Of a stretch of DNA of 64,000 bases, positions 5,234 through 24,741 are shown piece after piece. This stretch comes from Bacteroidota bacterium. Lineage in GTDB: Bacteria > Bacteroidota > Rhodothermia > Rhodothermales > UBA10348. The stretch is from contig JADFHF010000003.1 in NCBI GenBank assembly GCA_022567305.1, positions 62,001-126,000 on the forward strand. The letters are read 5' to 3'. Position numbers and translations under genes: made by a program. The notes below the pieces were generated by a model that made no database searches, had not been told where the DNA came from, and saw nothing but the letters and a program-made list of their open reading frames with translations. Position 1 is the first letter of the stretch, and each line of letters opens with the position of its first letter.

Positions 5234-6469
5234 ATGGCTCACGGTAACCCTACTGACACCTTTCTACTCGTATCTTCTAATTACCCAATTGCATACAGAA
5301 ATGGGGTTGACAAGCCGAAATGCGGCAAGGACGCGAATCTGGATAAAGAACAGGCTACTGTGGATACGCCCGTTGCCCTAATTCTTTTTAACAGACCCGA
5401 GCCTACGGCCAGGGTTTTCGATTCAATTCGAAAGGCCCGACCGCCACGCTTGTTTCTGATCGCAGACGGTCCAAGGCCTGACCGGCCAGATGACGCTGCA
5501 CTGGTTGCCACAGCCAGGAAAACAACGGACCGTGTTGACTGGCCGTGCGACGTGGTAAAGCTCTTTTCTGATGAAAATCTGGGTGTCGGAAAACGAGTAG
5601 CCAGTGGTATCGACTTTGTATTCGAGTCTGCACCTGAGGCTATCATTCTTGAAGATGATTGTCTTCCCAGTGACAGTTTTTTCCCCTTTTGCGAAACGCT
5701 GCTGAGGCGATATCGAGACAACGAAAACGTCATGCTCATTAGTGGAACCAACAATCTATTGACGTGGAAAGCGGCAGAGCAGGATTACCATTTCTCAGCA
5801 TATGGTAGCATATGGGGTTGGGCTTCATGGAGACGAGCATGGAGACAGTATGATTTTGACCTCAACAGCTTGAGTGATTCCACAACGTGTGAGCGAGTCG
5901 CAGGTTTTCTCTCCGATTCTGACCAATATGAGTACATGTATCACATGTGCGAACAGGTCCGGACTGGAGAGATTGATACCTGGGACTACCAGTGGGCGTG
6001 GGATCGACTCGCAAATCAGGGCCTGGCAATTGTGAGTGCTAAAAACCTCGTCTCCAATCTGGGATTCGGTGACAGCGCTACGCACACCGTAAGACCCAAT
6101 CTGCTCAGTTCTAATCTAAGCCGATTCGAAGCACCCCCCGATCTACGAAAACCCAAAGACTCTAACACGGACCGCGATTACGATCGGAGACTTTTTCAAA
6201 TCTGGCAGGAACAGCCTGAAATAGACTCCCTCATAGAACGGGGTGTGGCCATGATTGAAGGCCACCGTCATATTCACGCCCTCATATTATTTGAAGAAGC
6301 ATCCAAACTGAACCCGGAAAAGTCGGAGCTGCTCTTCTATAAGGCAAAGGCACTGATTGGTCTCCGGAGATTTTCACAGGCACAAACAATCCTCAACAAA
6401 CTAAACGAAATTGCCCCTGATTTCGTCGGTTCTCATGAACTGCTGTCTAGAATCCTGGTGGAGAAATAG
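5234..6469 (+). CDS. HlpA-like GT-A glycosyltransferase with C-terminal TPR-like region
   Basis: About 411 aa from ATG 5234. The frame is open back to 5003, but those residues look non-coding and no ribosome-binding site was found, so the start is uncertain. Core: VALILFNRPEPTARVF, FLIADGPR, then ILEDDCLPSDSFF with the acidic nucleotide-sugar/metal motif, and WGWASWRRAWRQYD, as in glycosyltransferases annotated 'hemolytic protein HlpA-like'. The last ~90 residues are helical and TPR-like (ALILFEEASKLNPEKSELL), probably for protein contacts. First of three same-strand glycosyltransferase genes; the next starts 4 bp after its stop. Confidence 0.7.
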   Translation: MAHGNPTDTFLLVSSNYPIAYRNGVDKPKCGKDANLDKEQATVDTPVALILFNRPEPTARVFDSIRKARPPRLFLIADGPRPDRPDDAALVATARKTTDRVDWPCDVVKLFSDENLGVGKRVASGIDFVFESAPEAIILEDDCLPSDSFFPFCETLLRRYRDNENVMLISGTNNLLTWKAAEQDYHFSAYGSIWGWASWRRAWRQYDFDLNSLSDSTTCERVAGFLSDSDQYEYMYHMCEQVRTGEIDTWDYQWAWDRLANQGLAIVSAKNLVSNLGFGDSATHTVRPNLLSSNLSRFEAPPDLRKPKDSNTDRDYDRRLFQIWQEQPEIDSLIERGVAMIEGHRHIHALILFEEASKLNPEKSELLFYKAKALIGLRRFSQAQTILNKLNEIAPDFVGSHELLSRILVEK

Positions 6470-6473
6470 GGCT

Positions 6474-8042
6474 ATGTCCTCGTCCGACATAATTCGTGTG
6501 TTGCATGTCATTCCTGATCTCACGTTAGGCGGAGCCGGTCGGGCACTCTTCGAACTGCATGAACAAGCCGTCGAAATAGGCGCCGCAATACAAGAAAAAA
6601 TTATTTCGTTGAGCGCAGCAAGCCCGGAGGCGATCCGACAAGCTAAACAAGTCGATATTACAGTACTTGACTGCCCCGATCACACTACGATTATCGACGA
6701 AATCAATGCGTGCGATGTTGTTTTGGTCCATTTCTGGAACTCGCCGGAATTGCACGCGCTGCTCTGTTCCGAGTTGCCTGCCATGAGGATAGTGTTCTGG
6801 TCACACATTTTCGGAGCCCATCCGCCTCATATTATATCCGATGAACTCGTGGCTATGGCAAATATCGTCGTTTCCACTACCCCTTCCACCCAGGATCTTC
6901 CAGCATTCCGATCCCTGTCGCTTTCAGCTGAAGAGAAGGAAAAACGAACGATTCCGGGAATAGGAGATTTTTCCCGTCTGAAGGGATATACGTTCAGGCC
7001 GCACGAAGGAATCAATGTTGGATACGTCGGCACAGTCGATTACGTAAAAATGCATCCACAATTTGCCTCAATGACTACGGCTGTAAAAACACCTGATGCG
7101 AGATTCGTGGTGTGTGGAACCGGAGGAGCATACCACTTACTAATTCAACATGTTCAGAATCAGGGTATTGAGGAACGATTCGACTTTCGGGGCTACGTTG
7201 AAGACATTCTTTCGGTATTAGAGACGCTGGACATTTTTGGATATCCGCTCTGCGAGGACACGTATGCAACAAGCGAGAGGAGCCTCCAAGAAGCCATGTA
7301 TGTCGGTGTTCCCCCAGTCGTATTTCCATACGGCGGAATCCCGGATTTGATCGCTGACAACGATACCGGACTCGTGGTTCGAAGCGAAAAAGAATACGTA
7401 GAGGCAATAGAACATCTGTGTGAGAATCCTGACGAAAGAAAAAGAATTGGCGAGAACGCAAGAAATCTGATCAGGCGAAAGCATAACGAAGGCCAAATGG
7501 CTACCAAGATGATGAACTTATTCGATGAGCTTCTTAGCGTACCAAAGAGAATGCGTAATCGTGAACCCCTCATCGTTGCCGATGCGGTCGATGACTACAG
7601 CAGTGCGTCCCGATTTGATGGAGCAAAACTGTTTATTCGATCGATAGGCGATTCGGCACCTTGGTTCGCTGAGAGCATGGCAGACAATAGTCAAAACTCG
7701 CTGCATAATGCCGACGAACGGATCGCCGCTTCGTCTCCATTATTGTCCAGTGTCGCAAGTGGTGGTATTCTGAACTACCGAAAGAACTTCCCTGATGATG
7801 GATACTTGGCGTTCTGGTCCGGACTTGTCCTTGCCAGGAAAAACCGGCCTGCCCTTGCACTCGCGGAATTTATTCGAGCTAGAAGAAATGGAGTGGACCA
7901 TTGGCGCATCGATTGGCATCTCGCCCGAACCGCCGCAGAATCAGGGGCAGGTAAACTAGGGCTTCAAGCGCTGGATCGACTGATCCAAAAAGCTCCTGAT
8001 CACGAAGGGGTTGATGAACTACGGGCGCGTCTAACCTGGTAA
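6474..8042 (+). CDS. GT4-family glycosyltransferase with TPR-like C-terminus
   Basis: 522 aa from ATG 6474, 4 bp after the previous stop, with GGAG about 10 bases upstream inside the preceding gene. The frame opens earlier (6411), but the fold starts at VLHVIPDLTLGGAGRALFEL, a typical GT-B N-terminus for retaining glycosyltransferases. The C-terminal Rossmann half has GYVGTVDYVK, RFVVCGTG and the donor-binding E-x7-E-type segment ERSLQEAMYVGVPPVV...PYGGIPDLI. The final ~120 residues are helical, with a repeat-like motif (FWSGLVLARKNRPALALAEF). Likely adds a sugar to a cell-surface glycan; the donor is not predictable. Confidence 0.78.
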   Translation: MSSSDIIRVLHVIPDLTLGGAGRALFELHEQAVEIGAAIQEKIISLSAASPEAIRQAKQVDITVLDCPDHTTIIDEINACDVVLVHFWNSPELHALLCSELPAMRIVFWSHIFGAHPPHIISDELVAMANIVVSTTPSTQDLPAFRSLSLSAEEKEKRTIPGIGDFSRLKGYTFRPHEGINVGYVGTVDYVKMHPQFASMTTAVKTPDARFVVCGTGGAYHLLIQHVQNQGIEERFDFRGYVEDILSVLETLDIFGYPLCEDTYATSERSLQEAMYVGVPPVVFPYGGIPDLIADNDTGLVVRSEKEYVEAIEHLCENPDERKRIGENARNLIRRKHNEGQMATKMMNLFDELLSVPKRMRNREPLIVADAVDDYSSASRFDGAKLFIRSIGDSAPWFAESMADNSQNSLHNADERIAASSPLLSSVASGGILNYRKNFPDDGYLAFWSGLVLARKNRPALALAEFIRARRNGVDHWRIDWHLARTAAESGAGKLGLQALDRLIQKAPDHEGVDELRARLTW

Positions 8043-8090
8043 CTATTATCTGGACGATCGTTCTAGTCCGCAGAATGAACTGAGTATGCC

Positions 8091-9344
8091 ATGCAGAATC
8101 TGATGGTGTTCGAAACGTCGTGCTTTGGGCACCACGAATATTATCTACGTCTGCTTGTCGAATACTGGCTGAAAGAAAACAGGTTAGGGCGTTTGGATGT
8201 CGTTGTCTCTCCTCAGTTTTACCGTGAGCATTCAGAGTTTATCCGATTGATTGAATCCAACGACCCCATCCATATGCGAGTAGTTTCATATTCGCAATCA
8301 GAGCATGAACGGCTTCAGAAGGGCAACACGAGCAAGACAATGTCTGTTGCCTCATTTCTGAACTCGGAATTTGATCACGATGAACACTCTACCATAAATT
8401 GGACACTGTTCCAAAGCTATGCTCGAAAACTGTCTACGTCTCACGCAGTGATGATGTATTTCGATGACAGTTACATACAAGTCGCCGGTCATCTGAAATT
8501 TCCCTGCACGTTTTCCGGAATATTCTTTCGACCCACATTTCACTACGCTGTGGATCTAAACAGGTCAGAAGAATCTGTTCAACGCCTGCAGGAAAAGTTT
8601 ACGCTCTCACGTGTCCTGAAACATCCTAATCTCTCGAAACTTTTCTGCCTGGATTCTAACGCCGTCGAAGCGTTTGGTCGTGAAGCCAAAGACAAATTTG
8701 TATGTCTTCCGGACCCTGTTCCCATCCCTAAAAATCTCGAGCCCGATAATGAGCGGTTTCGTGTTGACCTGGGGGTTGATCCGGATCGTAAATTATTACT
8801 CTTTTTTGGCGAACTGAGCCCGCGCAAAGGACTTACACAATTACTTGAAAGCCTGACGATTCTATCCGCTGAATCATCGCGCAGACTTAGCCTGTTGATT
8901 GCCGGGCCGATCAATGCGTACGATCCTGCTGTCCTAGATGCTCTGGTCCAAACGGCGCGGAAATCGAATCCGATACAGATTATTCGCAGACATGAACACA
9001 TCCCGGATGGCGAATTATCAGACCTGTTTTTTGCCTCAGACCTCATCTTGCTCCCGTATCAACGACATGTGGGAATGAGCGGAATCCTCCTGAAGGCGGC
9101 CGCGCATGGAAAGCCAGTCTTAACTCAGGACTACGGATGCGTTGGTCAGATCGTTAGGGACCATTCCCTTGGTCTTACCGTCGATACCACGAACCCAGCG
9201 GCGTTGGCTCAAGCCTTAGTCACGTTCCTGGGTGGTGGATTTCACGGATACGTTGACCGAGGATGCATGACTCAATTAGCCCTGAGACATGAAGAATCTC
9301 AGTTCGCGAAAGTATTCTTCAACGAAATAACTCAAGAGAGTTAG
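8091..9344 (+). CDS. GT4-like glycosyltransferase
   Basis: 417 aa. The GT-B fold is indicated by the second-half motifs FFGELSPRKGLTQLLES, LLIAGPINAYD, IPDGELSDLFFASDLILLPY and GMSGILLKAAAHGKPVL, which together form the nucleotide-sugar donor site. The N-terminal acceptor half (ETSCFGHHEYYLRLLVEYW) is less conserved, as usual. The gene lies 48 bp after the preceding glycosyltransferase on the same strand, ends the plus-strand unit and converges on the HprK-like gene. Likely a glycan assembly step at the cytoplasmic face of the membrane. Confidence 0.72.
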   Translation: MQNLMVFETSCFGHHEYYLRLLVEYWLKENRLGRLDVVVSPQFYREHSEFIRLIESNDPIHMRVVSYSQSEHERLQKGNTSKTMSVASFLNSEFDHDEHSTINWTLFQSYARKLSTSHAVMMYFDDSYIQVAGHLKFPCTFSGIFFRPTFHYAVDLNRSEESVQRLQEKFTLSRVLKHPNLSKLFCLDSNAVEAFGREAKDKFVCLPDPVPIPKNLEPDNERFRVDLGVDPDRKLLLFFGELSPRKGLTQLLESLTILSAESSRRLSLLIAGPINAYDPAVLDALVQTARKSNPIQIIRRHEHIPDGELSDLFFASDLILLPYQRHVGMSGILLKAAAHGKPVLTQDYGCVGQIVRDHSLGLTVDTTNPAALAQALVTFLGGGFHGYVDRGCMTQLALRHEESQFAKVFFNEITQES

Positions 9345-9433
9345 CTCTCGACCGATCTCATCGAGTTGTTCTGGGCGAGATCTCCAGGTTTGCGTTCGAT
9401 TATCACATAGCTATTATCGTCAACGTGCCCGAC

Positions 9434-10513
9434 CTAGGGATTTTTCAGGAGTTCGAGAATCGCTTCAGGAATTTGGGATATGTCCGTACCCACATTCAGC
9501 TGGTAACAGGGCACGGTTCGGAAAAGAGTCGACAAGGTGCTGAATGTAGTCGGACCAGTGCTTGGCCAGCGGATTGACGTATCCGGAGCCAAGGTCAATA
9601 ATCCTCTGGCGGGTGATCCAGCTTCCACCGTGGTGTCACGCAGGCCGGTTACGCGTGGCATTATAATGACCCTTAAAGGAAAGCCCGTAATCATTTTTCC
9701 AGGAAATAAGACGTCCAGGAAAAAGAGAAGTTTGCCGTTTTCCAGATAGGATAGCTTCTCCCGGTGGCGCGCTAGGAATGGAAATCGGTCGATGTCTTCC
9801 GGATGTGTTTTAGCTGTGCTGTAAATACTTTGAACAAACGGCTCCGGACGTGAGCCTACCAAGCAACGATCGTCACCAGCGTAAAAAAGTTCTGAATCAA
9901 GGCAGGATAAGCCTGTATTCGACTTTCCAGACCCACAATCTCCAACTAACAGTGCTCCTCCGTCCGGCAACCCAACCGCTCCCGCGTGAACGTGAACGAG
10001 TCCCCTCTTGCTGAGCCATGAATGAAAAAGTGCGAATAATGGAGATGCCGTTTCGTGATCCGGAACGTCTTCAGCGTTTTTGATCCAGAAGATCCCATTT
10101 TCTCCCTTCTCATCGAATATGGTAAGTGCGTTATGGTAAACGTTATAGTGTGTATACAGGCCCGCAGATATAAAAGACGGGATTTCTCCATTTACCCGGA
10201 GTTCGTCGTCGTTCCACGGTGGAGGCAACATCGAGACACCCGTAGAAACACTATCCCACAGTGAAACGCTTAAGTCTACGCGCTGAGCTGGAGGTACCGA
10301 TAAATGAGCAAGAGCTGGTGTTAGACGAGGCACCAGGGCCGTGCCGGAGAATCGAAACCGGATCAGGTGACCTCTGATTTCATAATACCGCTCGATAATT
10401 TCGTCGGAACGCTTCTCCGCATCCAGTACCCGTCTCGAAAGGGAATAAAAATAATCTTGCGGAGACACCCGAATTTCATCAACGCTAGCACGAATCGTTC
10501 TGTCGGGATGCAC
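9434..10513 (-). CDS. HprK-related P-loop kinase (HPr-rel-A / RiPP-locus type)
   Basis: 359 aa. The C-terminal half resembles HPr kinase: VHVHAGAV (173-180) followed by the P-loop GDCGSGKS (191-198) and AGDDRCLVG (~217-225), which suits nucleotide and metal binding. The N-terminal ~165 residues are a separate poorly conserved domain. Such HprK relatives are typically found beside PqqD-like proteins and PF14907 nucleotidyltransferases, as here; some phosphorylate peptides in lasso-type loci. The gene starts 2 bp after the PqqD-like stop, so the two are almost certainly co-translated. No PTS genes are in the window, so a role in sugar-transport control is unlikely. Confidence 0.75.
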   Translation of the reverse strand: MHPDRTIRASVDEIRVSPQDYFYSLSRRVLDAEKRSDEIIERYYEIRGHLIRFRFSGTALVPRLTPALAHLSVPPAQRVDLSVSLWDSVSTGVSMLPPPWNDDELRVNGEIPSFISAGLYTHYNVYHNALTIFDEKGENGIFWIKNAEDVPDHETASPLFALFHSWLSKRGLVHVHAGAVGLPDGGALLVGDCGSGKSNTGLSCLDSELFYAGDDRCLVGSRPEPFVQSIYSTAKTHPEDIDRFPFLARHREKLSYLENGKLLFFLDVLFPGKMITGFPLRVIIMPRVTGLRDTTVEAGSPARGLLTLAPDTSIRWPSTGPTTFSTLSTLFRTVPCYQLNVGTDISQIPEAILELLKNP

Positions 10514-10515
10514 GG

Positions 10516-11010
10516 CTATGCGTCCTCAGGCGCCCGAGTAGAATCAGCCTGCCTGCCGTCAGCTTGTTCTTTCATATTGGGCCATCCGGACTCATCCACC
10601 TCATGAATGGGATCGAGGAAGAGGAGCTCCTGCATATCTGTAAATTTGCTCAGAACGGGAGCCGTGAATGGCAGTTTGTCAGTAGACGCATGTCCGTCTG
10701 TTGAGATTGGATTCAGCTCTGGGTCAGATTGCTCGGAGTCTATGGCTTCTACGATCAATTTCTCTTCAATCAGTGAATCAATAAACGTTTCGACTGTATG
10801 CGTCAGGTCGACTCCGTTGCTGTTGTATTTGGAATCAATTTGGTCAACGATTTGCTTTGCCGTCATACCCCGCCCAAGTAGTTCCCAAATCTGACTGGCC
10901 ACGAACGTCAAACTGAAATATGTACCAGTCTCGAGATTGATAATTACGACTTCACCATCAATCGTCTCACTGGCCACAGAGGGCTCGTTCATTCGGTACT
11001 GCACTATCAT
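10516..11010 (-). CDS. PqqD-like protein with a 75-residue C-terminal tail
   Basis: 164 aa. Residues 1-90 are a PqqD/RiPP-recognition-like winged helix (YRMNEPSVASETIDGEVVII, TGTYFSLTFVASQIWELLG, then paired helices to KLIVEA). Such domains bind leader peptides for modifying enzymes. After an acidic linker the tail holds PVLSKFTDMQELLFLDPIHE and VDESGWP (about 118-144), an amphipathic motif; I recall similar tails on other PqqD-like proteins but cannot verify this. A GGGAAAGG run adjoins the ATG. The gene is followed after 2 bp by the HprK-like gene. No precursor-peptide gene was found nearby. Confidence 0.75.
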   Translation of the reverse strand: MIVQYRMNEPSVASETIDGEVVIINLETGTYFSLTFVASQIWELLGRGMTAKQIVDQIDSKYNSNGVDLTHTVETFIDSLIEEKLIVEAIDSEQSDPELNPISTDGHASTDKLPFTAPVLSKFTDMQELLFLDPIHEVDESGWPNMKEQADGRQADSTRAPEDA

Positions 11011-11086
11011 CCTTTCCCGGATTTGCCTTGACTAATCTATTACTACCTAAAACGTAGATATTTCCCAGTTTCGCTACTTCCCGGGG

Positions 11087-11812
11087 TCACCGTTCTGTCC
11101 AGGGAGACAGGTCCAGCTGATCGATGCCCATCTCTCTACGGCGATCAAGCGATCGTTTCACCAAAGACAAGAAACTTAGGCTTTGATGGCCCTCTTCTTG
11201 AGTCATGTTACCAGGGTGCCTACGATACAAAATCGTCGTGTTGTCTACAAACCGGGTCGGGATCTTCTGCTCTCGGGTTCTCAGCAGGAAATCGAAGTCT
11301 TCCCCGTATTTGAGCGTTGGATCAAACAATCCAACTTTATCAAACACAGCACGCCGAAAAAGCGCACATCCAATCTGTATAATAAAAAACGGTTCCACAT
11401 ACTCGGTCCAGGCGGCCTTGTCCGCGGTCTGATGGTGCTCGCGGAAGTATTGCGTATTCCCGAGCACCATCTCTACTCCTGTTTCCTCTGCCAACAGTGA
11501 GAGCTGCAGCTCAAGCTTGTTGGCAGGCCAAAGATCGTCAGCATCCAAAAAACCGATCACATCGCCATCTGCGGCTCGTATTCCAGTATTTCGCGCAACT
11601 TGTGGCCCCTGATTCTCCTGAAAGATGTATCTGCACGCAGGAGTGAATTCGCGAATGATAGAAGCCGTTCTGTCTGTTGACCCATCGTCGACAACGATTA
11701 TTTCAAGTGGATTGTATTTCTGGGCCCACACGCTCTTTACAGCCTCCAGAATATAGGCTGACCCGTTAAATACGGGAATCACTACGCTTATGCTTGTTTT
11801 ACCGGCTGTCAT
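11087..11812 (-). CDS. GT2-family glycosyltransferase
   Basis: 241 aa with the standard GT-A features: ISVVIPVFNGSAYILEAVKS, EIIVVDDGSTDRTASI, NTGIRAADGDVIGFLDADD (the DxD metal/donor motif) and the acceptor-region GEDFDFLLR. It is an inverting enzyme that uses nucleotide sugars; no membrane segment is present, so it is peripheral or cytoplasmic. It lies 3 bp after the next upstream GT2 gene (stop 11816), in the five-gene minus-strand run ending with PqqD and HprK genes. The specific sugar is unknown. Confidence 0.85.
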   Translation of the reverse strand: MTAGKTSISVVIPVFNGSAYILEAVKSVWAQKYNPLEIIVVDDGSTDRTASIIREFTPACRYIFQENQGPQVARNTGIRAADGDVIGFLDADDLWPANKLELQLSLLAEETGVEMVLGNTQYFREHHQTADKAAWTEYVEPFFIIQIGCALFRRAVFDKVGLFDPTLKYGEDFDFLLRTREQKIPTRFVDNTTILYRRHPGNMTQEEGHQSLSFLSLVKRSLDRRREMGIDQLDLSPWTER

Positions 11813-11815
11813 AAG

Positions 11816-12517
11816 TTAGGAGCCGCCGTTGTCGGTATTCCGTTGGCGTTCAATCGATCTGCGAAGCAAAGAGAGCAGTTCGTTCGTGTTGCGCGCAGCA
11901 TTATTTGACAAGTTGTCACTGTGAACCCGCTTTTCCAGTAATACTTTTTCGAGTATGTGTCCGCTCGATCCCAAATCCTTGCATCGGGCGAACCAGTCAA
12001 CGTCTGCGGCGATTTTCAGCGATTCGTCAAAAAGACCTACGTCATCGAATAAAGATTTTCTGGCCATGAGTGTACCCGGGATTCGACCGATATAGTCACC
12101 TTCCAACAGTTCCGGCTTAAATCCCGTCGGAATCTGGTTTCCCTTCTCCAGGAAAAAGTGAACGCGCCCGATAACATAGTCCGTGCTCGGACTGGCTTTC
12201 ATGTGCTCAATCTGTTGAGACAATTTGTCCTCGACCCAGAGATCGTCACTCTCAATAAATGCAATTAAATCGCCTGCAGCTTGGCGGATTCCATAGTTCC
12301 AGGCATTGGAAAGACCTTTTCCGTCCTGCGTAAGTAGGCGGACGAGAGCAGACGACTCGGCTATTTCGCGACTTCGGTCGTCTGAATTGCCGTCAACAAC
12401 CAAAATTTCTTCGGGAGGCAAACTCTGGTTTCGAACACTCTCAATAGCAGACGCCAGATAGCGCTCACCATTTAGGACGGGAAGGATTACACTGACGCTG
12501 GAATGATCGGGGTTCAC
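11816..12517 (-). CDS. GT2-family glycosyltransferase
   Basis: 233 aa. GT-A motifs are SVILPVLNGERYLASAIESV, EILVVDGNSDDRSREIAE, WNYGIRQAAGDLIAFIESDD (SDD in place of ADD) and a late IAADVDWFARCKDLG that matches the usual catalytic-base region. It is a paralogue of the two neighbouring GT2 proteins at 11087 and 13649, and together they look like a set of chain-building enzymes. The gene lies in the minus-strand run with 3 bp to its downstream neighbour and 58 bp from the upstream one. Confidence 0.83.
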   Translation of the reverse strand: MNPDHSSVSVILPVLNGERYLASAIESVRNQSLPPEEILVVDGNSDDRSREIAESSALVRLLTQDGKGLSNAWNYGIRQAAGDLIAFIESDDLWVEDKLSQQIEHMKASPSTDYVIGRVHFFLEKGNQIPTGFKPELLEGDYIGRIPGTLMARKSLFDDVGLFDESLKIAADVDWFARCKDLGSSGHILEKVLLEKRVHSDNLSNNAARNTNELLSLLRRSIERQRNTDNGGS

Positions 12518-12575
12518 TTTCCTCTTCTGACACTTTTTCTGAGGTGGCTATTTCTGTGATGGCTATTAAAATAAG

Positions 12576-13505
12576 TTACCAGTATGCCCCATGATCGCAA
12601 ACATCTATCTCCTTAGGACGGTATTCTGTGGGCATATCAATCCAGCTGTCGGTGAAATAACGATCAGCCCAGTCCCCTTCCTCGCGCCATCTTTTGCCGA
12701 TCACGCCGAACAACACCTGCAAATGACCGCCTAAGTCGATCGCGATTTTGCCCATATCCTTGATGGTTGACGCTAGCGGGATGGCTATTCCACCAGCACC
12801 GATAAGCGCGATGTCAAATTTTCGCGTTCGAATTTCGTCATGAATCTCATCAATTAGATTGAGTACGGTCGAATACCGTAAATGCGTCTCTGTGCTGAAT
12901 CCGTAAGGAAACTCGATAGCATCGACTGTCTCTGGATAGAACCACTTTTTCCCCGTTTTTGCCCATACACCGTCAAAATCTGACTTGTTTGCTCGTTGCT
13001 TCAAAAGTTTGGCAAAGGGGCAAATGAGAAGGATTTTTTTACCCCGGAAAAACGGCAGATAACACCGATCTGGTCTTTGGGGAATAGACCGGTCTGGTTC
13101 CTGGTCCATAAAATGAACGAGATTGTGCAGGCCGTAATGGCCGATTACTACATTCTCCATCCGGTCCAAATTCAGGAATACACCCAGGCTATCCATATTC
13201 ATTACATGTGGCACGAAATAATTATTGTATTGCAGATAAAAGTCCAGATCGGCAGGAAACAGGCCAGAGTTCTTGAGAGCGTGATGTTTCAGTTTTTTCT
13301 CAAAATCGAGGATTCCAATGCGACTGGTCCCCTGTTCTTTAAGGACCGGGTAAATCATCCAATGCAGTTCCGATGGTCCCAATTTTCCGGCCGCATATCC
13401 CGACCCAGTTTCCAACGCGTATTTGATTCCGTCGAGTATAAACTGCCTCGAATGAATGGGTCTTCTAAGTAGATCGCCAATTCTCACACGTTCACTTTGG
13501 ATCAT
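12576..13505 (-). CDS. GT-D-like (DUF1792-type) glycan biosynthesis protein
   Basis: 309 aa. The N-terminal ETGSGYAAGKLGPSE resembles the RxGxGE-type signature of GT-D glycosyltransferases. The C-terminus has FDIALIGAGGIAIPLASTIK, AIDLGGHLQVLFGVIGKRW and a final DHGAYW, a pattern I associate with uncharacterised capsule and O-antigen cluster proteins. The middle region is not recognised. First gene of the minus-strand run, divergent from the GT2 gene at 13649, so the 143-bp gap probably holds both promoters. Enzymatic activity is inferred from the motif only. Confidence 0.5.
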   Translation of the reverse strand: MIQSERVRIGDLLRRPIHSRQFILDGIKYALETGSGYAAGKLGPSELHWMIYPVLKEQGTSRIGILDFEKKLKHHALKNSGLFPADLDFYLQYNNYFVPHVMNMDSLGVFLNLDRMENVVIGHYGLHNLVHFMDQEPDRSIPQRPDRCYLPFFRGKKILLICPFAKLLKQRANKSDFDGVWAKTGKKWFYPETVDAIEFPYGFSTETHLRYSTVLNLIDEIHDEIRTRKFDIALIGAGGIAIPLASTIKDMGKIAIDLGGHLQVLFGVIGKRWREEGDWADRYFTDSWIDMPTEYRPKEIDVCDHGAYW

Positions 13506-13648
13506 TCGTTTACCCTTGTCTGTAGGCCAGAAATGTACTCAATCGGCTCTTTTTATCGTACCTATCAGAGTACGTTCAAGGATTCGATTTTGGTCGATCG
13601 TTTCCAGAATGCTTATCTAGCTGAGATACTAACTATCCTCAACGAAAA

Positions 13649-14371
13649 GTGGAGAATCCGTCCGTCGTCAGCGTCGTCATTCCAGTGCACAATGGTGCGA
13701 AATATCTGAAGCAGGCTGTTGAAAGTGTGCGATGTCAGCGATGGCCGAACCTTGAAATTCTGATCGTTGACGATGGCTCGACAGATGACACCGCTGATGT
13801 TGCTCGCTCACTTGGAGCTTCAATACAGCTCATTTCGCAGGAACAGTCAGGAGCTGCTGTTGCCAGGAACCGAGGTGTTGCCGAAGCGCAGGGAAAATGG
13901 TTGGCGTTTCTTGACGCAGATGACCTGTGGACAGAATCAAAGTTGGAATTGCAGATCAACACGCTTCAATCCAATCCGTCGATCGATATCGTTTTTGGAC
14001 ATGTAGTACAATTTATCTGTCCGACTTTATCCGTCAAGGAAAAAGCACTACTCGCCTGTCCTCCGGATGCAGTGCCTGGATTTCACCCGGGTACTATGCT
14101 TTTGGAGAAGGCGACGTTTTTGAACATCGGAGAGTTTGACACGCAATGGGACGTTGGGGAATTCGTAGACTGGTATGCCAAGGCTATTGAAATGGGAGTC
14201 AAATCGACCATGTTAACGGACATATTGATGAAGCGTCGGCTCCACAACACAAATCAGGGTATTTACAAACGAGATAGTTACAGCCGTGATTACCTACGCA
14301 TTTTGAGGGCGTCACTTCTTCGTCGGCGGTCGTCAACCAGTGATAGCTCACCGCAAACTCAGAAAGATTGA
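13649..14371 (+). CDS. GT2-family glycosyltransferase
   Basis: 240 aa from a GTG start. GT-A motifs are VSVVIPVHNGAKYLKQAVES, EILIVDDGSTDDTADVAR, NRGVAEAQGKWLAFLDADD and an acceptor-side GEFVDWYAKAIEMG. The start is fixed by the fold beginning within five residues; the ribosome-binding site is weak (AACGAAAA). It is divergent from the GT-D-like gene and followed by a nucleotidyltransferase-like gene 78 bp downstream on the same strand. Likely role: sugar transfer in the island's glycan. Confidence 0.83.
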   Translation: MENPSVVSVVIPVHNGAKYLKQAVESVRCQRWPNLEILIVDDGSTDDTADVARSLGASIQLISQEQSGAAVARNRGVAEAQGKWLAFLDADDLWTESKLELQINTLQSNPSIDIVFGHVVQFICPTLSVKEKALLACPPDAVPGFHPGTMLLEKATFLNIGEFDTQWDVGEFVDWYAKAIEMGVKSTMLTDILMKRRLHNTNQGIYKRDSYSRDYLRILRASLLRRRSSTSDSSPQTQKD

Positions 14372-14449
14372 CATCCGGCCATGAAGAGATGCGGCACAAG
14401 TCCCCAAACTTTTATAAGAGATTACAGCAACTTCTAGATTGACCATGAA

Positions 14450-15556
14450 ATGAGAGACTGCTGGCCAGACGCTAATCAAATATTACTCCTTCAGGCATCC
14501 GTTGGCCGCGGCGGGCAAGCCATGGAAGCGTGGAAGCAGTGGTCTGGATCTGTTGATTTTGAGGATCTGGACACCGGTTCATACCGCCTATTGCCTCTTC
14601 TCTACAAGAATCTGGAGTCACATCAGGTGTCCGGGCCTATCCATGAAAAATTAAAAGGGATTTTCAGACATACGTTCGTCACTAATCAATTTCAGTTCAA
14701 GTCGCTACAATCGGTCCTCCGAGCACTTCAGCTAAGAAAAGTTCCGGTAATACTGATGACCGACGCGTTTCTGATGGCGAAAGTGTATGAGAACGTCGGA
14801 TTGCGACCACACAATCATCTAAGCATTCTCATTCATCCATCATGCATCGCTGATGCACGTGATATTTTCCAGAGTCTGGGATGGAGAGCGCTGTTCGAAC
14901 CTGATAGCATGAGCCGGCGAATGCAACGGTATAGAGGAATCACTCTAACGGATCCGGACGAGCACGCAATTGAACTGCAGTGGCGTGTGCTGGACGACGA
15001 GTCCGTGAATGGCGATCGGTCATTCAGGGATCACGCCACACGAGAATCGGTTTTCGATGCCGAAGCAATGTGTCCGGATGCTGCCGATGTGCTGCTGCAG
15101 ATTATAGTCGACGGAATCAAGTGGAACGAGGTTGCCCCTTTCCGTTGGATAGCGGACGCTTGTTCACTCCTGGATAAGTTCGAGGTCAATTGGGACTATT
15201 TTTACTCTCAGACAATCGCGTACAAAAAGTCCTTGGTAGTTCAGCGGGGATTAAGATATCTAAACGAATTGAAGCTCATCCACCTTCCGGAATCCGTTCT
15301 TCTGTCCGTAAACGGATTTGAAATTGACCCAGTCGAGAAGAAAGTATTCCAATTTGTAACTACTGCTGCGCGTCCACTATCGCTCTTGAATCGAGTCCTC
15401 TATGTCCAATTGGACTACCTCAAATTGACGGGGCGGCTAACTGTAGTTCCTCATCCGGTTCAATTCGCTCGCTATCTGGCAAACCGCTGGGGTCTGAATT
15501 CTCTAGCTGCAGTTTTCAATACGAGTCTAAGAAAAATCGTCCACAGGAGGGGTTAG
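14450..15556 (+). CDS. PF14907-like nucleotidyltransferase with degenerate active site
   Basis: 368 aa. The overall layout follows the family 'uncharacterised nucleotidyltransferase' (helical N-terminus with LLPLLYKNLES, core nucleotidyltransferase strand-helix unit, then EHAIELQWRVLDDE). The catalytic positions are changed: the usual lysine-glycine is T104-D105 (ILMTDAFLM), and the metal-binding DxD is replaced in LRPHNHLSILIHPS (118-131). It is probably catalytically inactive, perhaps a partner of the intact paralogue at 17423. Its stop overlaps the convergent ABC gene's stop by 4 bp. Confidence 0.7.
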   Translation: MRDCWPDANQILLLQASVGRGGQAMEAWKQWSGSVDFEDLDTGSYRLLPLLYKNLESHQVSGPIHEKLKGIFRHTFVTNQFQFKSLQSVLRALQLRKVPVILMTDAFLMAKVYENVGLRPHNHLSILIHPSCIADARDIFQSLGWRALFEPDSMSRRMQRYRGITLTDPDEHAIELQWRVLDDESVNGDRSFRDHATRESVFDAEAMCPDAADVLLQIIVDGIKWNEVAPFRWIADACSLLDKFEVNWDYFYSQTIAYKKSLVVQRGLRYLNELKLIHLPESVLLSVNGFEIDPVEKKVFQFVTTAARPLSLLNRVLYVQLDYLKLTGRLTVVPHPVQFARYLANRWGLNSLAAVFNTSLRKIVHRRG

Positions 15557-17418
15557 GGAATCCTCCCCGATGGGGACTCTACGGTATACCCGGTTCCACT
15601 TGCAGCCTGGATTTCGTCTTTGTCGATTAAATTCCGAAATAGGCCATCGTGCTGAGGCCCGAGTTCCTCCCAGGGTCCCTGCTCTACAACTCGACCATTC
15701 TTGAGTACGATAACATGGTCTGCATTTCGAATTGTTGAGAGCCGGTGGGCAATTACGACGAGCGTCAATTCTCCCTGCAATCGATCAATGGCCTCCTGGA
15801 TTCTGAGTTCGTTCTCCAAGTCCAGCGCACTTGTAGCCTCATCCAACAGAAGAAGAGACGGGCGGCGAATTAACGCCCTGGCCAAAGCAATTCGCTGCCT
15901 CTCGCCTCCCGAAAGCCTGATGCCTCGATCTCCGACGAGCGTGTCCAGGCCGTCTGAAAGGTTTGCGACGAATTCGTCCGCGGAAGCAGCCGCCAGAGCA
16001 TGCCAGATCTCCGCCTCTGAGGCAGTGGGCTTCCCCCAAAGAATATTAGATCGAATGGTGTCATGAAAAAGGAAAGTCTCTTGGGGTACGTATCCAACAG
16101 AAGAGCGCCATCCCTCCATGTTCACAGCCGAAAGTTCAGTACCATCTATGACAATTTTACCTTCTGTCGGTCGGAGAAGACCAATCATCATATCGGCAAG
16201 AGTTGTTTTGCCTGACCCTGAAGGTCCCACGATCGCAGTCATGTGCTTCGCGGATATTCGGACGTTTATTGAGTCGAGAGCCGGATAATCTACTGAGCCA
16301 TACGTGTATGCGACGTGGTCGAAGATTATCTCCCTATCCACGGAAATCGCTTTGGCTGGACATTCGCCACGACTCTCCTGTCCGGCTTCAAGTTTCTTAA
16401 GCAGTCTCAAATACGCCTCGTATGAGGGCATTTCATGGATCAGCCGATGCCAATTATTAAGAAGCGCCGAGAACTGCGGAAAAACCCTTGAAAACAGCAG
16501 AATCAGCAATATCAATTCTGGGACGGGGAGCTCCAGCACAGCAACTCCGACATACACAAACGCACTTAAGGCAGCAGCAACGCCGATTTGTTGAAGGAGT
16601 TTTCCTGCCTCTGCTGTTCGGGTAAAACTGACCGAAGCATCAACGAGATCAGTTCCCAGCTTCTTGAAACGATTGATGTATTCTGATTCGAGTCCATAGC
16701 TCTTTGAGATTTTCAGACCGGCAAGATGATCCGTAACGGCGCTGTAAATACCCATCCACGATGTGTGCCGTTTTGCCCCGGACTCTCTCACCTTCTTGGA
16801 AAATGGCCTCAGTAGAACCAGGAGAAGAACACCTGAGACGAGAGTGATAAGAGTGGCTGGGATCGAGATAAAGCCTGCAATTGCAATGTTTGCCAGGAGA
16901 AGGAGTATCGTTCCCATAATCGTTTGAACATCACGCGTAGAAGTTGCGATTGAGGATACATCGCCGTGAATGGTGTGATGAATGCTGGAGGCCTTCATTC
17001 CAACAATAATAGACCAGCGCGCATGAGCCATGGCTTCATAAACCCGGTCGCGCAGTCCCCTGGTGAACTCTTCTACAATGACTGTCTGAAGAATGGACTG
17101 ACGGTAGCGAACCACGGCGTGGAGTACAATGACTCCCACAAACAGCAACAACCCGGAAGTCAACGTTAGATTTATTCCAGCCGATTCAACTGCTCGAACG
17201 GCCAGCCGCATTATTTGGCTGTCAGCTTGATTCTCAGACACCCCAACCACATATAAAAACGGAATAAGCATTAGCAGCCCGATACCATTTAACAGGCTGA
17301 CTATCAGCTGTAAAGCGATCGTCACGTAGGCTGATAAACCCGTTTTTTTAAAGTAAAACACGGCAAAATGCAGGGGCTGAAATCCCGCGAGATATGTTCG
17401 GATACTTTGCCTCGTCAT
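15553..17418 (-). CDS. ABC exporter, MsbA/flippase-like (fused permease-ATPase)
   Basis: 621 aa half-transporter. The N-terminal ~330 residues carry about six membrane segments (e.g. FAVFYFKKTGLSAYVTIALQ, LLLFVGVIVLHAVV, ELILLILLFSRVF). The ATPase has Walker A GPSGSGKTT (398-406), Q-loop PQET (Q446), signature LSGGERQR (from 502) and Walker B LLLLDEAT. It should act as a homodimer in the inner membrane, moving a lipid-linked glycan or peptide outward. There is no peptidase C39 domain, so it is not a bacteriocin-type processing exporter. The gene starts 4 bp after the PF14907 nucleotidyltransferase stop and shares its transcript. Confidence 0.88.
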   Translation of the reverse strand: MTRQSIRTYLAGFQPLHFAVFYFKKTGLSAYVTIALQLIVSLLNGIGLLMLIPFLYVVGVSENQADSQIMRLAVRAVESAGINLTLTSGLLLFVGVIVLHAVVRYRQSILQTVIVEEFTRGLRDRVYEAMAHARWSIIVGMKASSIHHTIHGDVSSIATSTRDVQTIMGTILLLLANIAIAGFISIPATLITLVSGVLLLVLLRPFSKKVRESGAKRHTSWMGIYSAVTDHLAGLKISKSYGLESEYINRFKKLGTDLVDASVSFTRTAEAGKLLQQIGVAAALSAFVYVGVAVLELPVPELILLILLFSRVFPQFSALLNNWHRLIHEMPSYEAYLRLLKKLEAGQESRGECPAKAISVDREIIFDHVAYTYGSVDYPALDSINVRISAKHMTAIVGPSGSGKTTLADMMIGLLRPTEGKIVIDGTELSAVNMEGWRSSVGYVPQETFLFHDTIRSNILWGKPTASEAEIWHALAAASADEFVANLSDGLDTLVGDRGIRLSGGERQRIALARALIRRPSLLLLDEATSALDLENELRIQEAIDRLQGELTLVVIAHRLSTIRNADHVIVLKNGRVVEQGPWEELGPQHDGLFRNLIDKDEIQAASGTGYTVESPSGRIP

Positions 17419-17422
17419 TGTT

Positions 17423-18556
17423 CTAGTTCGCTACGGCATCTTTATTCCACACCATCGTTCTGCGCAATCCAGCGACGCTTGCGTATCGAGCTTTGGCGCG
17501 GATCGACCCATGGGTGGAGAACTGAAGTCTGATTCGATCTTTAAATCCAACGGTGCCAAGTATATACTGGTGAGGCAAACGCTCCAGAATAGAATTAACT
17601 GTCACTTGCACGGCTTTATGGACTCGTAGATTGGAATGAACCAATTCCGGGAAAGGTGCATCAAGCACACGATTGGCCAGCGAGAGTCCAATCAACAAGA
17701 TTTCATACCCTCCGCGAGATTTGGCCTCGTCGATGACTGATCCAAAATCCAGATTCGGAAATGAACGTACTAACTCGGCTACGTCGCACACATATTTTAG
17801 CGTTTCCCATCGATTTTTATGACCGTGGAAACATAGAATTTGAAGCATCAGCTCGGGCTCCGGAAAACTAAACGCCTCTGCTCCAAGGTCCAGAGTAGTA
17901 GATCTCTGAATCAGCTCCGCTGCATCAGGCCTAAATCTGAAATGAAGCGGCATGACGTGAGTGTGAATATCGAGGTTGAAGAATTGCCTCCCTCGTACAT
18001 AAGAAACCTGTGATCCTATTAAAATCCGCCATCTGCGGACCCATTGGGATGAACTCGCCAGTTCAGGATGCAATTCATACCCAATCTCTGACAGGACTTC
18101 GCCGATCCGGTGGATGTGTCGCGTTGGAACGACCACGTCAAGGTCTCCGTATTGCCGCAAACCAAGACTTCCATATGCAGCGTACGCTAGTACCGGGCCT
18201 TTAATCGAGATCGCCTGTATGCCATGCGCTGTCAAATGGCTGAACACGCGACTCAGTTCAGCTACAAGAAACTGACTCTTGAACGAGAGAGTCCGCATTC
18301 GATGCTGAAGAAACTCATAGACATATGTCGGAATAGATGGTTCTTCAATGTGACTAAAATGTCGATCTACGAGCGGTAACAGATTGTGATACTGTACCGA
18401 GCCGAGAAACACGTCCCAATTGATCCCTTCCCGGAGAAGAGACCTGGCAAATTCCTCGTCTGAGTCTCGCAGGATCGTTCGTGAAAGGCACGTGAGCAGC
18501 CCAAATTCGTTTGTTGGGGAATTAATCAATTGAACGTGCTTCCGTTTAGCTGTCAA
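17423..18556 (-). CDS. PF14907-family nucleotidyltransferase, intact active site
   Basis: 377 aa. It has the family's catalytic features: HGIQAISIKGPVLAYAAYG with K119-G120 and LGLRQYGDLDVVV with D138/D140. A helical C-terminal region includes LQILCFHGHKNRWETLKYVC. These enzymes are predicted to move a nucleotidyl group to an unknown acceptor and are often found in PqqD/HprK loci. The ATG overlaps the sugar-dehydrogenase-like stop (4-bp ATGA), and the ABC gene follows after 4 bp, forming a three-gene unit. Contrast the degenerate paralogue at 14450. Confidence 0.78.
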   Translation of the reverse strand: MTAKRKHVQLINSPTNEFGLLTCLSRTILRDSDEEFARSLLREGINWDVFLGSVQYHNLLPLVDRHFSHIEEPSIPTYVYEFLQHRMRTLSFKSQFLVAELSRVFSHLTAHGIQAISIKGPVLAYAAYGSLGLRQYGDLDVVVPTRHIHRIGEVLSEIGYELHPELASSSQWVRRWRILIGSQVSYVRGRQFFNLDIHTHVMPLHFRFRPDAAELIQRSTTLDLGAEAFSFPEPELMLQILCFHGHKNRWETLKYVCDVAELVRSFPNLDFGSVIDEAKSRGGYEILLIGLSLANRVLDAPFPELVHSNLRVHKAVQVTVNSILERLPHQYILGTVGFKDRIRLQFSTHGSIRAKARYASVAGLRRTMVWNKDAVAN

Positions 18557-19881
18557 TCGACAGTTGCTCTCAGTTCGGCAAAATCGCCTTCTTCCAGAAA
18601 AAGTAAGATAGAACCGTCCTGCCTTTGTATTAACGTCCTGATGCGTCTACCGATCGAGATAGGTTCGACAAATTCTACACGGCTATCGTCGAGACGTATC
18701 CGAAAAAGTGATCCCGCAACAAGAGTGGATATCAACAGATCACCACTCCACTCGCGCGGCCAATCTTGAATTTGAATGATATCGGATGGTGCAATCGAAG
18801 GCACCCAAGAGAAAACGGCTGGTTCCAACTCAATCGAATCTGGGGCTGACCCCACCAGCGGCCACTCCAGTGAGCCATAATCCGTTCCGTGTGTCTCAAA
18901 CGGCCAACCATAATGCTTGCCGATCTTAAGGTTCAATAATTCGTCTCCTCCTTCCGGACCGAAATCAGTTACCCAAATCTGACCGGCCGCACTTCTAATA
19001 AGACCGCCTGGATTTCTAAATCCTCTTGCATATTCAGTGACATTCAACGATTCCAGATTTATTTCAACAATTTTTCCCGCGCTCAAAGAATTATCCTGTG
19101 TGGCATCTGGATGCTGGACACCATCCAAATTGTAATCACCGGCAGCGAATAGGATAGAGCCGTTTTCGGTAATAAGCAGACCGCCCCCTGAATGATATCC
19201 TGCGAAAGAAGCACCCTCGTCGTCTGCGAATGTGATCAGCGGAGAAGTCTCATGAATGACCTCCCACTCGTCAGACCGTATCCGTAGAAATAAATTAGCC
19301 AAAGCGTCGGTTTCTTCACTCGACAGGGTGCGTCGAGCAATCCGGCTTGTTCTTCCTAATAAAAGATCATCCCAATGATCATAAGAAATGTATAACGTTG
19401 TATTCGAAGACTGTTCTACTGCAAGAAAATCAAGAACACGAAATGCCTTCCTATAAGACCAATCAAGATCGGAACGCAGACGTTGTTCCTTCAGATACTG
19501 AAGAAACGCTTCTCGATTTGTTGGCACGTCTATCTCGAGATAGTTGATCTGTCCTCCGCCCTCGTATGTGAAGAATTGTCCAGCACCATCTACACCCACC
19601 AACGAATTTCCGACATAACTAAAACCACCTCCGAACCCGTTCAGCTCAGAATCTTTCGGGCCATCATAAGTCTGCATGTCCAGCACGACGTGCGATGTAG
19701 TGATTCGACGAAATCCTGATTCGGAGTTTTTCATTCCAACGCTTGATGCAACGACGTCAAAAGTATAATTCAGCATCCGATGCGGGAATAATTGAAATTT
19801 CCCGACAACGACGCCGAATCCAAACGACGCGATCACCAGGAGCCCTGTTATCAGGCGATATTTAGACTGGATCTGGGGCAC
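18553..19881 (-). CDS. Membrane-anchored PQQ/sorbosone-dehydrogenase-like beta-propeller
   Basis: 442 aa. The N-terminal hydrophobic anchor (LITGLLVIASFGFGVVVGKF) is uncleaved-looking; the rest is periplasmic. Propeller motifs resemble glucose/sorbosone dehydrogenases: GGGLLITENGSILFAAGDYN, ITPH-like QHPDATQDNSLSAGKIVEIN, ARGFRNPGGL, WVTDFGPEGGDELLNL and GKHYGWPFETHG. It may oxidise a sugar or simply bind the glycan outside the membrane; PQQ use is not provable here. First gene of the minus-strand unit with the nucleotidyltransferase and ABC exporter, so it probably acts on the exported product. Confidence 0.65.
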   Translation of the reverse strand: MPQIQSKYRLITGLLVIASFGFGVVVGKFQLFPHRMLNYTFDVVASSVGMKNSESGFRRITTSHVVLDMQTYDGPKDSELNGFGGGFSYVGNSLVGVDGAGQFFTYEGGGQINYLEIDVPTNREAFLQYLKEQRLRSDLDWSYRKAFRVLDFLAVEQSSNTTLYISYDHWDDLLLGRTSRIARRTLSSEETDALANLFLRIRSDEWEVIHETSPLITFADDEGASFAGYHSGGGLLITENGSILFAAGDYNLDGVQHPDATQDNSLSAGKIVEINLESLNVTEYARGFRNPGGLIRSAAGQIWVTDFGPEGGDELLNLKIGKHYGWPFETHGTDYGSLEWPLVGSAPDSIELEPAVFSWVPSIAPSDIIQIQDWPREWSGDLLISTLVAGSLFRIRLDDSRVEFVEPISIGRRIRTLIQRQDGSILLFLEEGDFAELRATVD

Positions 19882-23399: not shown

Positions 23400-23684
23400 T
23401 CATCCACCCGATACCGCTTGGAGAACCGTGATCGTAGTTGGGCTATTCAGTTCGGCATCGAGCCCACCGAGCCATCTCAGATCCTCGTCTCCAACGTAGA
23501 CCAGCACATGTTGTCGAACCGCTCCCTGCTCGTCCAAAATATGGACTCTGAGCGAGGGCTCCTGGTCGAAGAGGTGTTCGAACACGGAATTTACCGTCGA
23601 GCCGATGCACCGGAATTTCTTTCGGCCACCAGTAACCATCGCCAGCACGCTCGATACATTGATTTCGATTTCCTGCTCAGGCAT
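23400..23684 (-). CDS. MoaD/ThiS-like ubiquitin-fold protein
   Basis: 94 aa, short beta-grasp-like protein: starts EIEINVSSVLAMVTGGRKKF, has VFEHLFDQEPSLRVHILDEQ and ends TITVLQAVSGG. The terminal GG is the feature that lets MoaD/ThiS proteins be adenylated and carry sulfur. The ATG lies inside the end of the BNR-protein gene (overlap ATGCCTGA, 8 bp), so translation is coupled. There is no molybdopterin or thiamine gene nearby. It could be a sulfur carrier or a protein modifier; the partner enzyme is unknown. Confidence 0.72.
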   Translation of the reverse strand: MPEQEIEINVSSVLAMVTGGRKKFRCIGSTVNSVFEHLFDQEPSLRVHILDEQGAVRQHVLVYVGDEDLRWLGGLDAELNSPTTITVLQAVSGG

Positions 23685-24741
23685 CGCTCTCGGAAAACAC
23701 TTTCACGGTAAGAATTCGGGGGAATATATCCGGAAGCGACTGCCATTGTTCACCCCGGTCATTGCTGTAGTGAACCGTTCCGGACGTCGTACCGAAATAA
23801 ATCCCACACGGGTCATGGCCATCGATATCCATGGCTCCCCGAAGAACGCCTGCGTGATATCGTGACTCCGGTAACCCATTACCGAGCGGATGCCACGAAT
23901 CGCCTTGGTCTTGGCTTCGGTAAACCTGGCATTTTCCGTCCACGGGGAGTCGGAATTCGTCGCTATGCAACGGGAATGAATAGAGCCACTTCGTGTGCGG
24001 ATCGACCACGATTGGAAATCCGAAGGTGGACGGCAAGCCATTTTGAATGGACTCCCATCTGTCCCCGCCGTCGCGAGTTCTGTACATCCCGGAGTGATTC
24101 TGTTGCCAGATCACGTTCGGATCGTCCGGATCCTGGGCCAGTGCGTGAACGCAGAAACCGATCTCAGAATCGTCCTCATCGGGAATGACCACCTTGATCC
24201 CCTGATTTTTCGGTGTCCACGTTTGACCGCCGTCCTCAGTTCGAAATACGCCGACCGCGGAAATTCCGCACCACATACGATCCGGATTTTGGCTATCTCT
24301 AAGGAAGGCATGGGCGCACATGCCGCCCGCTCCGGGACACCAACCGGATCGGGTCTCGTGTTCATTGAGCCCTGAAACAGGCAACCACGAGTCGCCATGG
24401 TTCGTGCTCTTAAAAAGTCCGGCTTCGTCAACACCGGCGTAATAGTCATCCGCTTCCGTAGCAAGAAACCAGATTTGATTCAGCTTTCGTTGGGCCTCCT
24501 CCTCGAACTTGGGACCGTCCACAATCTGCGTCCAATTCTCCAGGTCAGCGCTTCGATGGATGGCATGCCCATAAGTATCACTGGCCGTAGCCAGAAAATA
24601 TTCGCCGTTTGAGTTTCTCGAAGCCGTGGTAACCTTCCAACCCTTGAAATGCGGGCCATCTACGGTCCAGGAGTTACGTTTATCGTCGGAGCGAACCAGA
24701 AAAGCACCTTTTACGGTACCTACAATGATGAGAACACCCAT
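23677..24741 (-). CDS. BNR-repeat (sialidase/VPS10-like) beta-propeller protein
   Basis: 354 aa. Asp-box-like repeats: IHRSADLENWTQI, LFKSTNHGDSWLPV, VFRTEDGGQTWTPK, MYRTRDGGDRWESI, VYRSQDQGDSWHPL and VHYSNDRGEQWQSL, six blades in all. No cleavable signal peptide is visible (MGVLIIVGTVKGAFLVRSDD goes straight into the first strand), so the protein is probably cytoplasmic. Its 3' end overlaps the MoaD-like gene, and ArsC lies 108 bp upstream on the same strand. Enzymatic activity cannot be inferred; such propellers may bind ligands or proteins. Confidence 0.75.
   Translation of the reverse strand: MGVLIIVGTVKGAFLVRSDDKRNSWTVDGPHFKGWKVTTASRNSNGEYFLATASDTYGHAIHRSADLENWTQIVDGPKFEEEAQRKLNQIWFLATEADDYYAGVDEAGLFKSTNHGDSWLPVSGLNEHETRSGWCPGAGGMCAHAFLRDSQNPDRMWCGISAVGVFRTEDGGQTWTPKNQGIKVVIPDEDDSEIGFCVHALAQDPDDPNVIWQQNHSGMYRTRDGGDRWESIQNGLPSTFGFPIVVDPHTKWLYSFPLHSDEFRLPVDGKCQVYRSQDQGDSWHPLGNGLPESRYHAGVLRGAMDIDGHDPCGIYFGTTSGTVHYSNDRGEQWQSLPDIFPRILTVKVFSESDA

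Follow-up and report, generated by a model that had tools for sequence, protein, structure and literature searches.

What do a PqqD-family protein, an HprK-like kinase and PF14907 nucleotidyltransferases act on when they are encoded among glycosyltransferases and no precursor peptide gene stands beside them? The question is raised by an island at positions 5234-19881 of a 64,000-nucleotide stretch of a Bacteroidota bacterium genome (Rhodothermales; contig JADFHF010000003.1, positions 62,001 to 126,000; hereafter the window). The first-pass annotation of this DNA reported no recognisable precursor in the island. This is correct for a separate short open reading frame (ORF), but a precursor-like leader and core are present, fused to the C-terminus of the PqqD protein instead of being encoded by a gene of their own.

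The PqqD protein has 164 amino acids (aa), compared with about 90 for the bare form, and carries a 75-aa tail beyond its RRE (recognition element of ribosomally synthesized and post-translationally modified peptides, RiPPs). The tail, FTAPVLSKFTDMQELLFLDPIHEVDESGWPN, recurs in full-length relatives and consists of a leader-like FxxPxLxK motif followed by a near-invariant LLxLDPIH[E/D]VDxxGWP. The RRE is closest to TbiB1 of lasso peptide biosynthesis (35-37% identity; phmmer E 2e-11, Foldseek E 1e-5), a similarity that places it with the lasso-type discrete RREs (B1), while the lasso RRE model NF033536 gives 50 bits against a cut-off of 80. The pyrroloquinoline quinone model TIGR03859 scores 13 bits (cut-off 46), and this is the only PF05402 gene in the genome, which is 96% complete. 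Likewise, the tail profile has a single match in the host genome, at 72576-72671 of the contig (minus 62000 for window coordinates). Searched alone, the tail matched no NCBIfam family and gave no meaningful match in the PDB.

Conservation along the protein, taken as the mean share of sequences with the commonest residue, falls from 0.51 in the RRE to 0.15 in the linker, rises to 0.59 over the leader-like stretch and 0.85 over the core-like stretch, and drops to 0.13 beyond the core; the invariance of DPIH and DM is partly built in by scan patterns that lay within the core. Residues outside these patterns are also kept, namely F/Y-10 in 81 of 86 sequences, P-7 in 83 of 86 and GWP in all 86. The Thr/Ser preceding DM was considered as a phosphorylation site and rejected, since about 8% of the sequences are without it and the kinase is not consistently lost from them.

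An AlphaFold2 model of the PqqD protein, built on 70 sequences, has predicted local distance difference test (pLDDT) values above 92 in the RRE, about 62 in the linker and 96 at residues 111-120; it has a strand at 120-123 and leaves the core disordered. Its best PDB matches in Foldseek are 5v1u and 5v1v, both TbiB1-leader complexes of lasso biosynthesis. Lasso RREs are known to recognise the YxxP motif, which binds in their alpha3/beta3 cleft (PMC12710340). Given the modelled placement, these nearest structures and the known binding of YxxP, it is likely that the leader-like part docks onto the protein's own RRE in cis.

The fused tail is not peculiar to this genome. A six-sequence PqqD alignment searched against a genome-contig collection found 239 relatives, of which 80 were kept; all 80 have the tail, and their record titles place them in at least 10 phyla (Cyanobacteria, Nitrospirota, Chloroflexota, Deltaproteobacteria, Acidobacteria, Bacteroidetes, Verrucomicrobiota, Lentisphaerae, Candidatus Brocadiia, Bipolaricaulota, Intrasporangium of the Actinobacteria, and others). 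The alignment was required as query, the single window protein finding nothing in the genome contigs; no relative was found in virus contigs. The bias of the core patterns was avoided by searching with the kinase-family profile only, which is blind to the tail. Among 394 genomes of the window's phylum this gave six strong matches (>300 bits, the window included), the next best scoring 72 bits. A tailed PqqD stands at five of the five that have sequence on the PqqD side (the window counted), and the sixth stops at a contig edge. The cyanobacterial phylum (292 genomes) gave 11 matches, spread over 9 genomes; three fell in genomes whose loci were known already and have the tail, and the newly fetched loci carry a tailed PqqD in 8 of 8 cases. 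The 50 genomes of tail-bearing loci hold 57 occurrences of the tail, all in frames of 144-274 aa, and a stand-alone short tail gene was found neither in them nor in 245 genomes of the class. The tail occurs in 7 of these 245 genomes and in none of the listed genomes of the same family, and this patchy distribution suggests transfer between lineages.

Several variants of the tail were also seen. At three loci (L143, 6078-6509; L144, 5785-6264; L189, 2168-2659) the leader half is the same and DPPLPD or DPPMPD replaces DPIHEVDxxGWP, and these genes adjoin kinase, GT2, GT4 or PF14907 genes. Three other loci (L067, L068, L095) have a second WP repeat, for example SGWPNVDDKKGWPTRNPD, downstream of the usual core. 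At L190:8510-9001, from a genome of 1.9 Mb in the cyanobacterial-phylum sample, the tail is divergent (NFILELKEYNDAQELLLADPIHEVKDETGWTP) and the kinase match weaker. In addition, two genomes of the window's own order (L169 in G028, L170 in G042) have a tail-less PqqD (90 aa in L170) beside a divergent HprK-like gene; no tail, obvious glycosyltransferases or clear precursor were found at these loci, and the pairs look like a different arrangement.

The gene at 9434-10513 encodes a genuine member of the HprK superfamily, although it has no Pfam match and its NCBIfam matches are all below cut-off. The assignment is based on a match of the kinase-family profile to HPr kinases in the PDB (E 6e-6), on an AlphaFold2 model (pLDDT 91.7) with the PEPCK/HprK fold, and on retention in the family of His176, Lys197, Asp214 and Asp215. 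These residues are required in lasso kinases (PMC9266682). Pairwise distances among the PqqD proteins and among the kinases are correlated (0.76).

Together with the tailed PqqD, the kinase belongs to a recurrent set that includes PF14907 and GT2 enzymes and often an ATP-binding cassette (ABC) exporter. Within 8 kb of the 86 loci, many of which are cut by contig ends, the kinase was found at 70, GT2 at 67, PF14907 at 62, the ABC exporter at 32, a short-chain dehydrogenase/reductase (SDR) at 21 and an SMP-30 propeller at 14; no Pfam family among the other neighbours was present in more than 4 of 90 scanned. A GT4 cluster occurs at 12 loci, and SMP-30 propellers were seen at 16 loci other than the island. 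Since the set recurs in many phyla, its co-occurrence is far beyond chance. The kinase is joined in one protein with one or two GT2 domains at 17 loci, and a single frame at one locus (L188:7174-9156) encodes an RRE, an internal tail motif, another RRE-like domain and an HprK-like kinase. These fusions argue that the kinase and the glycosyltransferases work together. In the window, the GT2 protein of 11087-11812 shares 37-43% identity with the GT2 half of the HprK-GT2 fusions, that of 11816-12517 32-37% and that of 13649-14371 30-37% (blastp). That these PqqD, kinase, PF14907 and glycosyltransferase genes act as one unit, as the first-pass annotation proposed, is thus supported by their recurrence across phyla, the 17 fusions and L188. 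In the relatives, PqqD and HprK genes are neither always separate from the glycosyltransferases nor always accompanied by a standard precursor and synthetase, and no synthetase, B2 peptidase or separate precursor recurs. Both PF14907 genes of the host genome lie in the island, and that of 14450-15556 has HLS in place of DLD. Cyanobacterial loci, too, repeatedly pair a paralogue without DxD with an intact copy.

Other components of peptide pathways were searched for as well. No conserved small ORF was found near the 86 loci, and leader motifs in their vicinity were not in excess (83, versus 92 in shuffles). Profile searches of the host genome found no B2 leader peptidase (PF13471), in agreement with the earlier annotation of the island, and no SpI-type leader peptidase (TIGR02228). 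The asparagine synthetase also reported as missing from the island has one weak match in the genome, on another contig, and none recurs near the relatives' loci. No C39 peptidase domain was found in the ABC exporter (15553-17418).

Comparison with known systems places the cassette near several of them. In HPr-rel-A systems (TIGR04352/TIGR04353), a PqqD-family protein and an HprK-related kinase are encoded side by side in the vicinity of polysaccharide genes. The label of HPr-rel-A type given by the first-pass annotation does not fit these models, because the window kinase scores 17.3 bits against a TIGR04352 cut-off of 200 (other family members at most 36 bits) and the PqqD partner model TIGR04353 gives no match at E 0.1. 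Borosins carry their substrate peptide in cis at the C-terminus of its own modifying enzyme, a methyltransferase, whereas the fusion partner here is a recognition domain. Mycofactocin systems, like the cassette, combine a conserved peptide end, an RRE, and GT2 and SDR enzymes, but no radical SAM enzyme recurs within 8 kb of the loci studied here. With the paeninodin and pseudomycoidin lasso systems (B1, K, N) the cassette shares a B1-type RRE, an HprK-like kinase with His-Lys-Asp-Asp and a nucleotidyltransferase-type enzyme; it differs in having no B2, cyclase, separate precursor or conserved C-terminal Ser. In pseudomycoidin the peptide is phosphorylated and a hexose is then added (PMC9266682). 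Recently, linear polyphosphorylated peptide (LPP) systems of Bacillota were described (2026), in which an RRE, an HprK kinase, a nucleoside triphosphate (NTP) transferase and an MsbA-like exporter make linear phosphopeptides inside capsule loci (PMC13381572). The cassette has in common with them a discrete RRE, an HprK-like kinase, an NTP transferase, an MsbA-like exporter, no macrolactam cyclase, a Y/FxxP leader motif, loci rich in polysaccharide genes and a patchy distribution. However, LPP systems have separate precursors (YxxPxVLxHQxIxFETxxS), a Ser target and an SpI-like leader peptidase, and are reported only from Bacillota (PMC13381572), whereas the cassette has a fused FxxPxLxK[YF][TS]DM motif with none separate, no SpI, a near-invariant core without an invariant Ser and a kinase often fused to GT2, and is found in many phyla. 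The absence of B2, a cyclase and a separate precursor sets it apart from lasso systems, that of SpI and a separate precursor from LPP, and the model scores from HPr-rel-A. The earlier statement that such a system would be new was nevertheless too strong, a similar enzyme set having been described in Bacillota (PMC13381572).

With moderate confidence we hold that the cassette is of phospho-glycopeptide type (RiPP-like), its RRE protein carrying its own precursor. The tail would be the substrate, a peptide that may be phosphorylated, nucleotidylated and glycosylated. Judging from the predicted model, the leader-like part would occupy its own RRE in cis and present the core. By analogy with relatives, the HprK-like kinase would activate the tail by phosphorylation, PF14907 and GT2 enzymes would build a sugar chain where the tail is activated, and the product would leave through the ABC exporter, with a variable contribution of accessory sugar enzymes (GT4, SDR, SMP-30/glucose-sorbosone dehydrogenase propellers, sulfotransferases). 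The core might be either cut from the RRE or kept attached as a reusable carrier. The analogy has an experimental basis, as HprK-like kinases beside RREs (PadeK/PsmK, LppK) phosphorylate core Ser in paeninodin, pseudomycoidin and LPP, and hexose addition requires PsmN, an annotated nucleotidyltransferase (PMC9266682, PMC13381572).

Several observations weigh against this phospho-glycopeptide interpretation. RiPP cores are usually more variable than the one described here. The core has no invariant Ser, the Thr/Ser preceding DM being only common (79 of 86), no leader peptidase recurs near the relatives' loci, and release is not obvious for the L188 tail, internal to a longer protein. Of the 51 loci flanked by 5 kb on each side, 7 have no kinase cluster nearby, and the docking in the AlphaFold2 model may reflect conservation in the alignment. 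LppK rejected Thr in its own substrate, and LppN was without detectable activity in the published system (PMC13381572). The missing invariant Ser and leader peptidase, together with the internal tail of L188, leave room for an attached carrier or a docking arm only. As a carrier, the tail would be a peptide primer for a conserved glycan or small molecule, with the kinase-GT2 fusion acting on a near-invariant peptide and release unnecessary; this is a tentative possibility. If the tail is instead a scaffold or docking arm, the leader-like part would clip onto the RRE and the core would recruit and order the kinase, PF14907 and GT2 enzymes, the product being an ordinary surface glycan or glycolipid. 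The near-invariance of the core across phyla, the same lack of an invariant Ser and a leader peptidase, the internal L188 tail and the glycosyltransferase-rich setting with its flippase-like exporter would all suit such an arm, which we nevertheless consider rather doubtful, because the tested HprK-like kinases and PF14907 partners act on RRE-presented peptides, a leader-like motif fused to an RRE has the form expected of a cis substrate, and the second core class on the same leader half fits a changeable core.

LPP and lasso systems use separate precursors, and a precursor encoded elsewhere in the genome could by the same token be the one modified, the fused tail being a pseudo-leader that competes with that precursor or regulates the RRE. 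We regard this as quite improbable, as the surroundings of the 86 loci show neither a conserved short ORF nor an enrichment of leader motifs, in a search not exhaustive for remote unlinked precursors, and the host genome has one copy of the tail. That a lasso-tailoring remnant (PqqD, HprK, PF14907) became stranded by chance in a polysaccharide locus would agree with an RRE nearest those of lasso systems and with the absence of cyclase and protease here. It is extremely improbable and is refuted by conservation, since the gene set extends over at least 10 phyla, the tail being invariant and the kinase residues intact, and since the kinase is found fused to GT2.

The cassette is widespread and apparently undescribed; a literature search covering part of the literature found no published RRE-precursor fusion. 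If the phospho-glycopeptide interpretation is true, phospho/glyco-RiPP chemistry would extend from Bacillota to many phyla, with an example of an RRE carrying its own substrate; if the carrier reading is true, the loci would represent a widespread RRE-tethered pathway, the recognition domain bearing its own substrate. In 21% of PF05402 proteins the length is reported to exceed that of a bare RRE, with nothing else annotated on them (PMC12710340); the tailed PqqD accounts for one class of these proteins. Genome mining for short precursor genes will miss such loci. Moreover, a candidate substrate, kinase and GT2 can now be named, which offers a direct way to test the function of PF14907 enzymes.

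Table 1. Genes and peptide features of the island, in window coordinates, with domains assigned by Pfam and NCBIfam profile scans.
Feature	Position	Strand	Basis
TPR (tetratricopeptide repeat) protein, C-terminal TPRs, putative glycosyltransferase-like	5234..6469	+	TPR matches only; glycosyltransferase identity unconfirmed
GT4 glycosyltransferase with TPRs, accessory	6411..8042	+	PF00534 79 bits
GT4 glycosyltransferase, accessory	8091..9344	+	PF00534 64 bits
HprK-like kinase	9434..10513	-	Catalytic residues kept, PEPCK/HprK fold, profile match to PDB HprK
PqqD-type RRE (residues ~9-89) with C-terminal fused precursor-like tail	10516..11010	-	PF05402 45 bits
Tail peptide: leader-like FTAPVLSKF, then core-like TDMQELLFLDPIHEVDESGWP	10576..10671	-	Tail profile 75 bits
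GT2 glycosyltransferase	11087..11812	-	PF00535 125 bits
GT2 glycosyltransferase	11816..12517	-	PF00535 98 bits
GT-D-fold-like glycosyltransferase, probable operon partner	12576..13505	-	PF22882 37 bits
GT2 glycosyltransferase	13649..14371	+	PF00535 115 bits
PF14907 nucleotidyltransferase-like, without DxD motif, degenerate paralogue	14450..15556	+	PF14907 94 bits
ABC exporter/flippase, MsbA/PglK/HepA-like	15553..17418	-	Pfam/NCBIfam
PF14907 nucleotidyltransferase, intact DLD	17423..18556	-	PF14907 145 bits
Glucose/sorbosone dehydrogenase-like beta-propeller, N-terminal hydrophobic segment	18553..19881	-	PF07995 123 bits; accessory, membership uncertain

The gene content given by the first-pass annotation largely stands (two GT4, three GT2, a GT-D-like protein, PqqD, HprK-like kinase, two PF14907 and the ABC exporter), but its seventh glycosyltransferase, at 5234-6469, has TPR matches only. 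The genes are arranged in two minus-strand runs. One passes from 13505 to 9434 through GT-D-like, GT2, GT2, PqqD and HprK-like genes with intergenic gaps of 2-76 nt, and the second, from 19881 to 15553, comprises the glucose/sorbosone-dehydrogenase-like, PF14907 and ABC exporter genes. The TPR protein, the two GT4, one GT2 and the second PF14907 are encoded on the plus strand. PADLOC defence models gave no matches. The propeller of 18553-19881 also matches sugar dehydrogenases in the PDB; its run also holds the PF14907 and ABC exporter genes, and the tailed PqqD is the only member of that family in the genome. In addition, two sortilin/BNR-type propeller proteins are encoded near the island, at 23677-24741 and 37905-39329.

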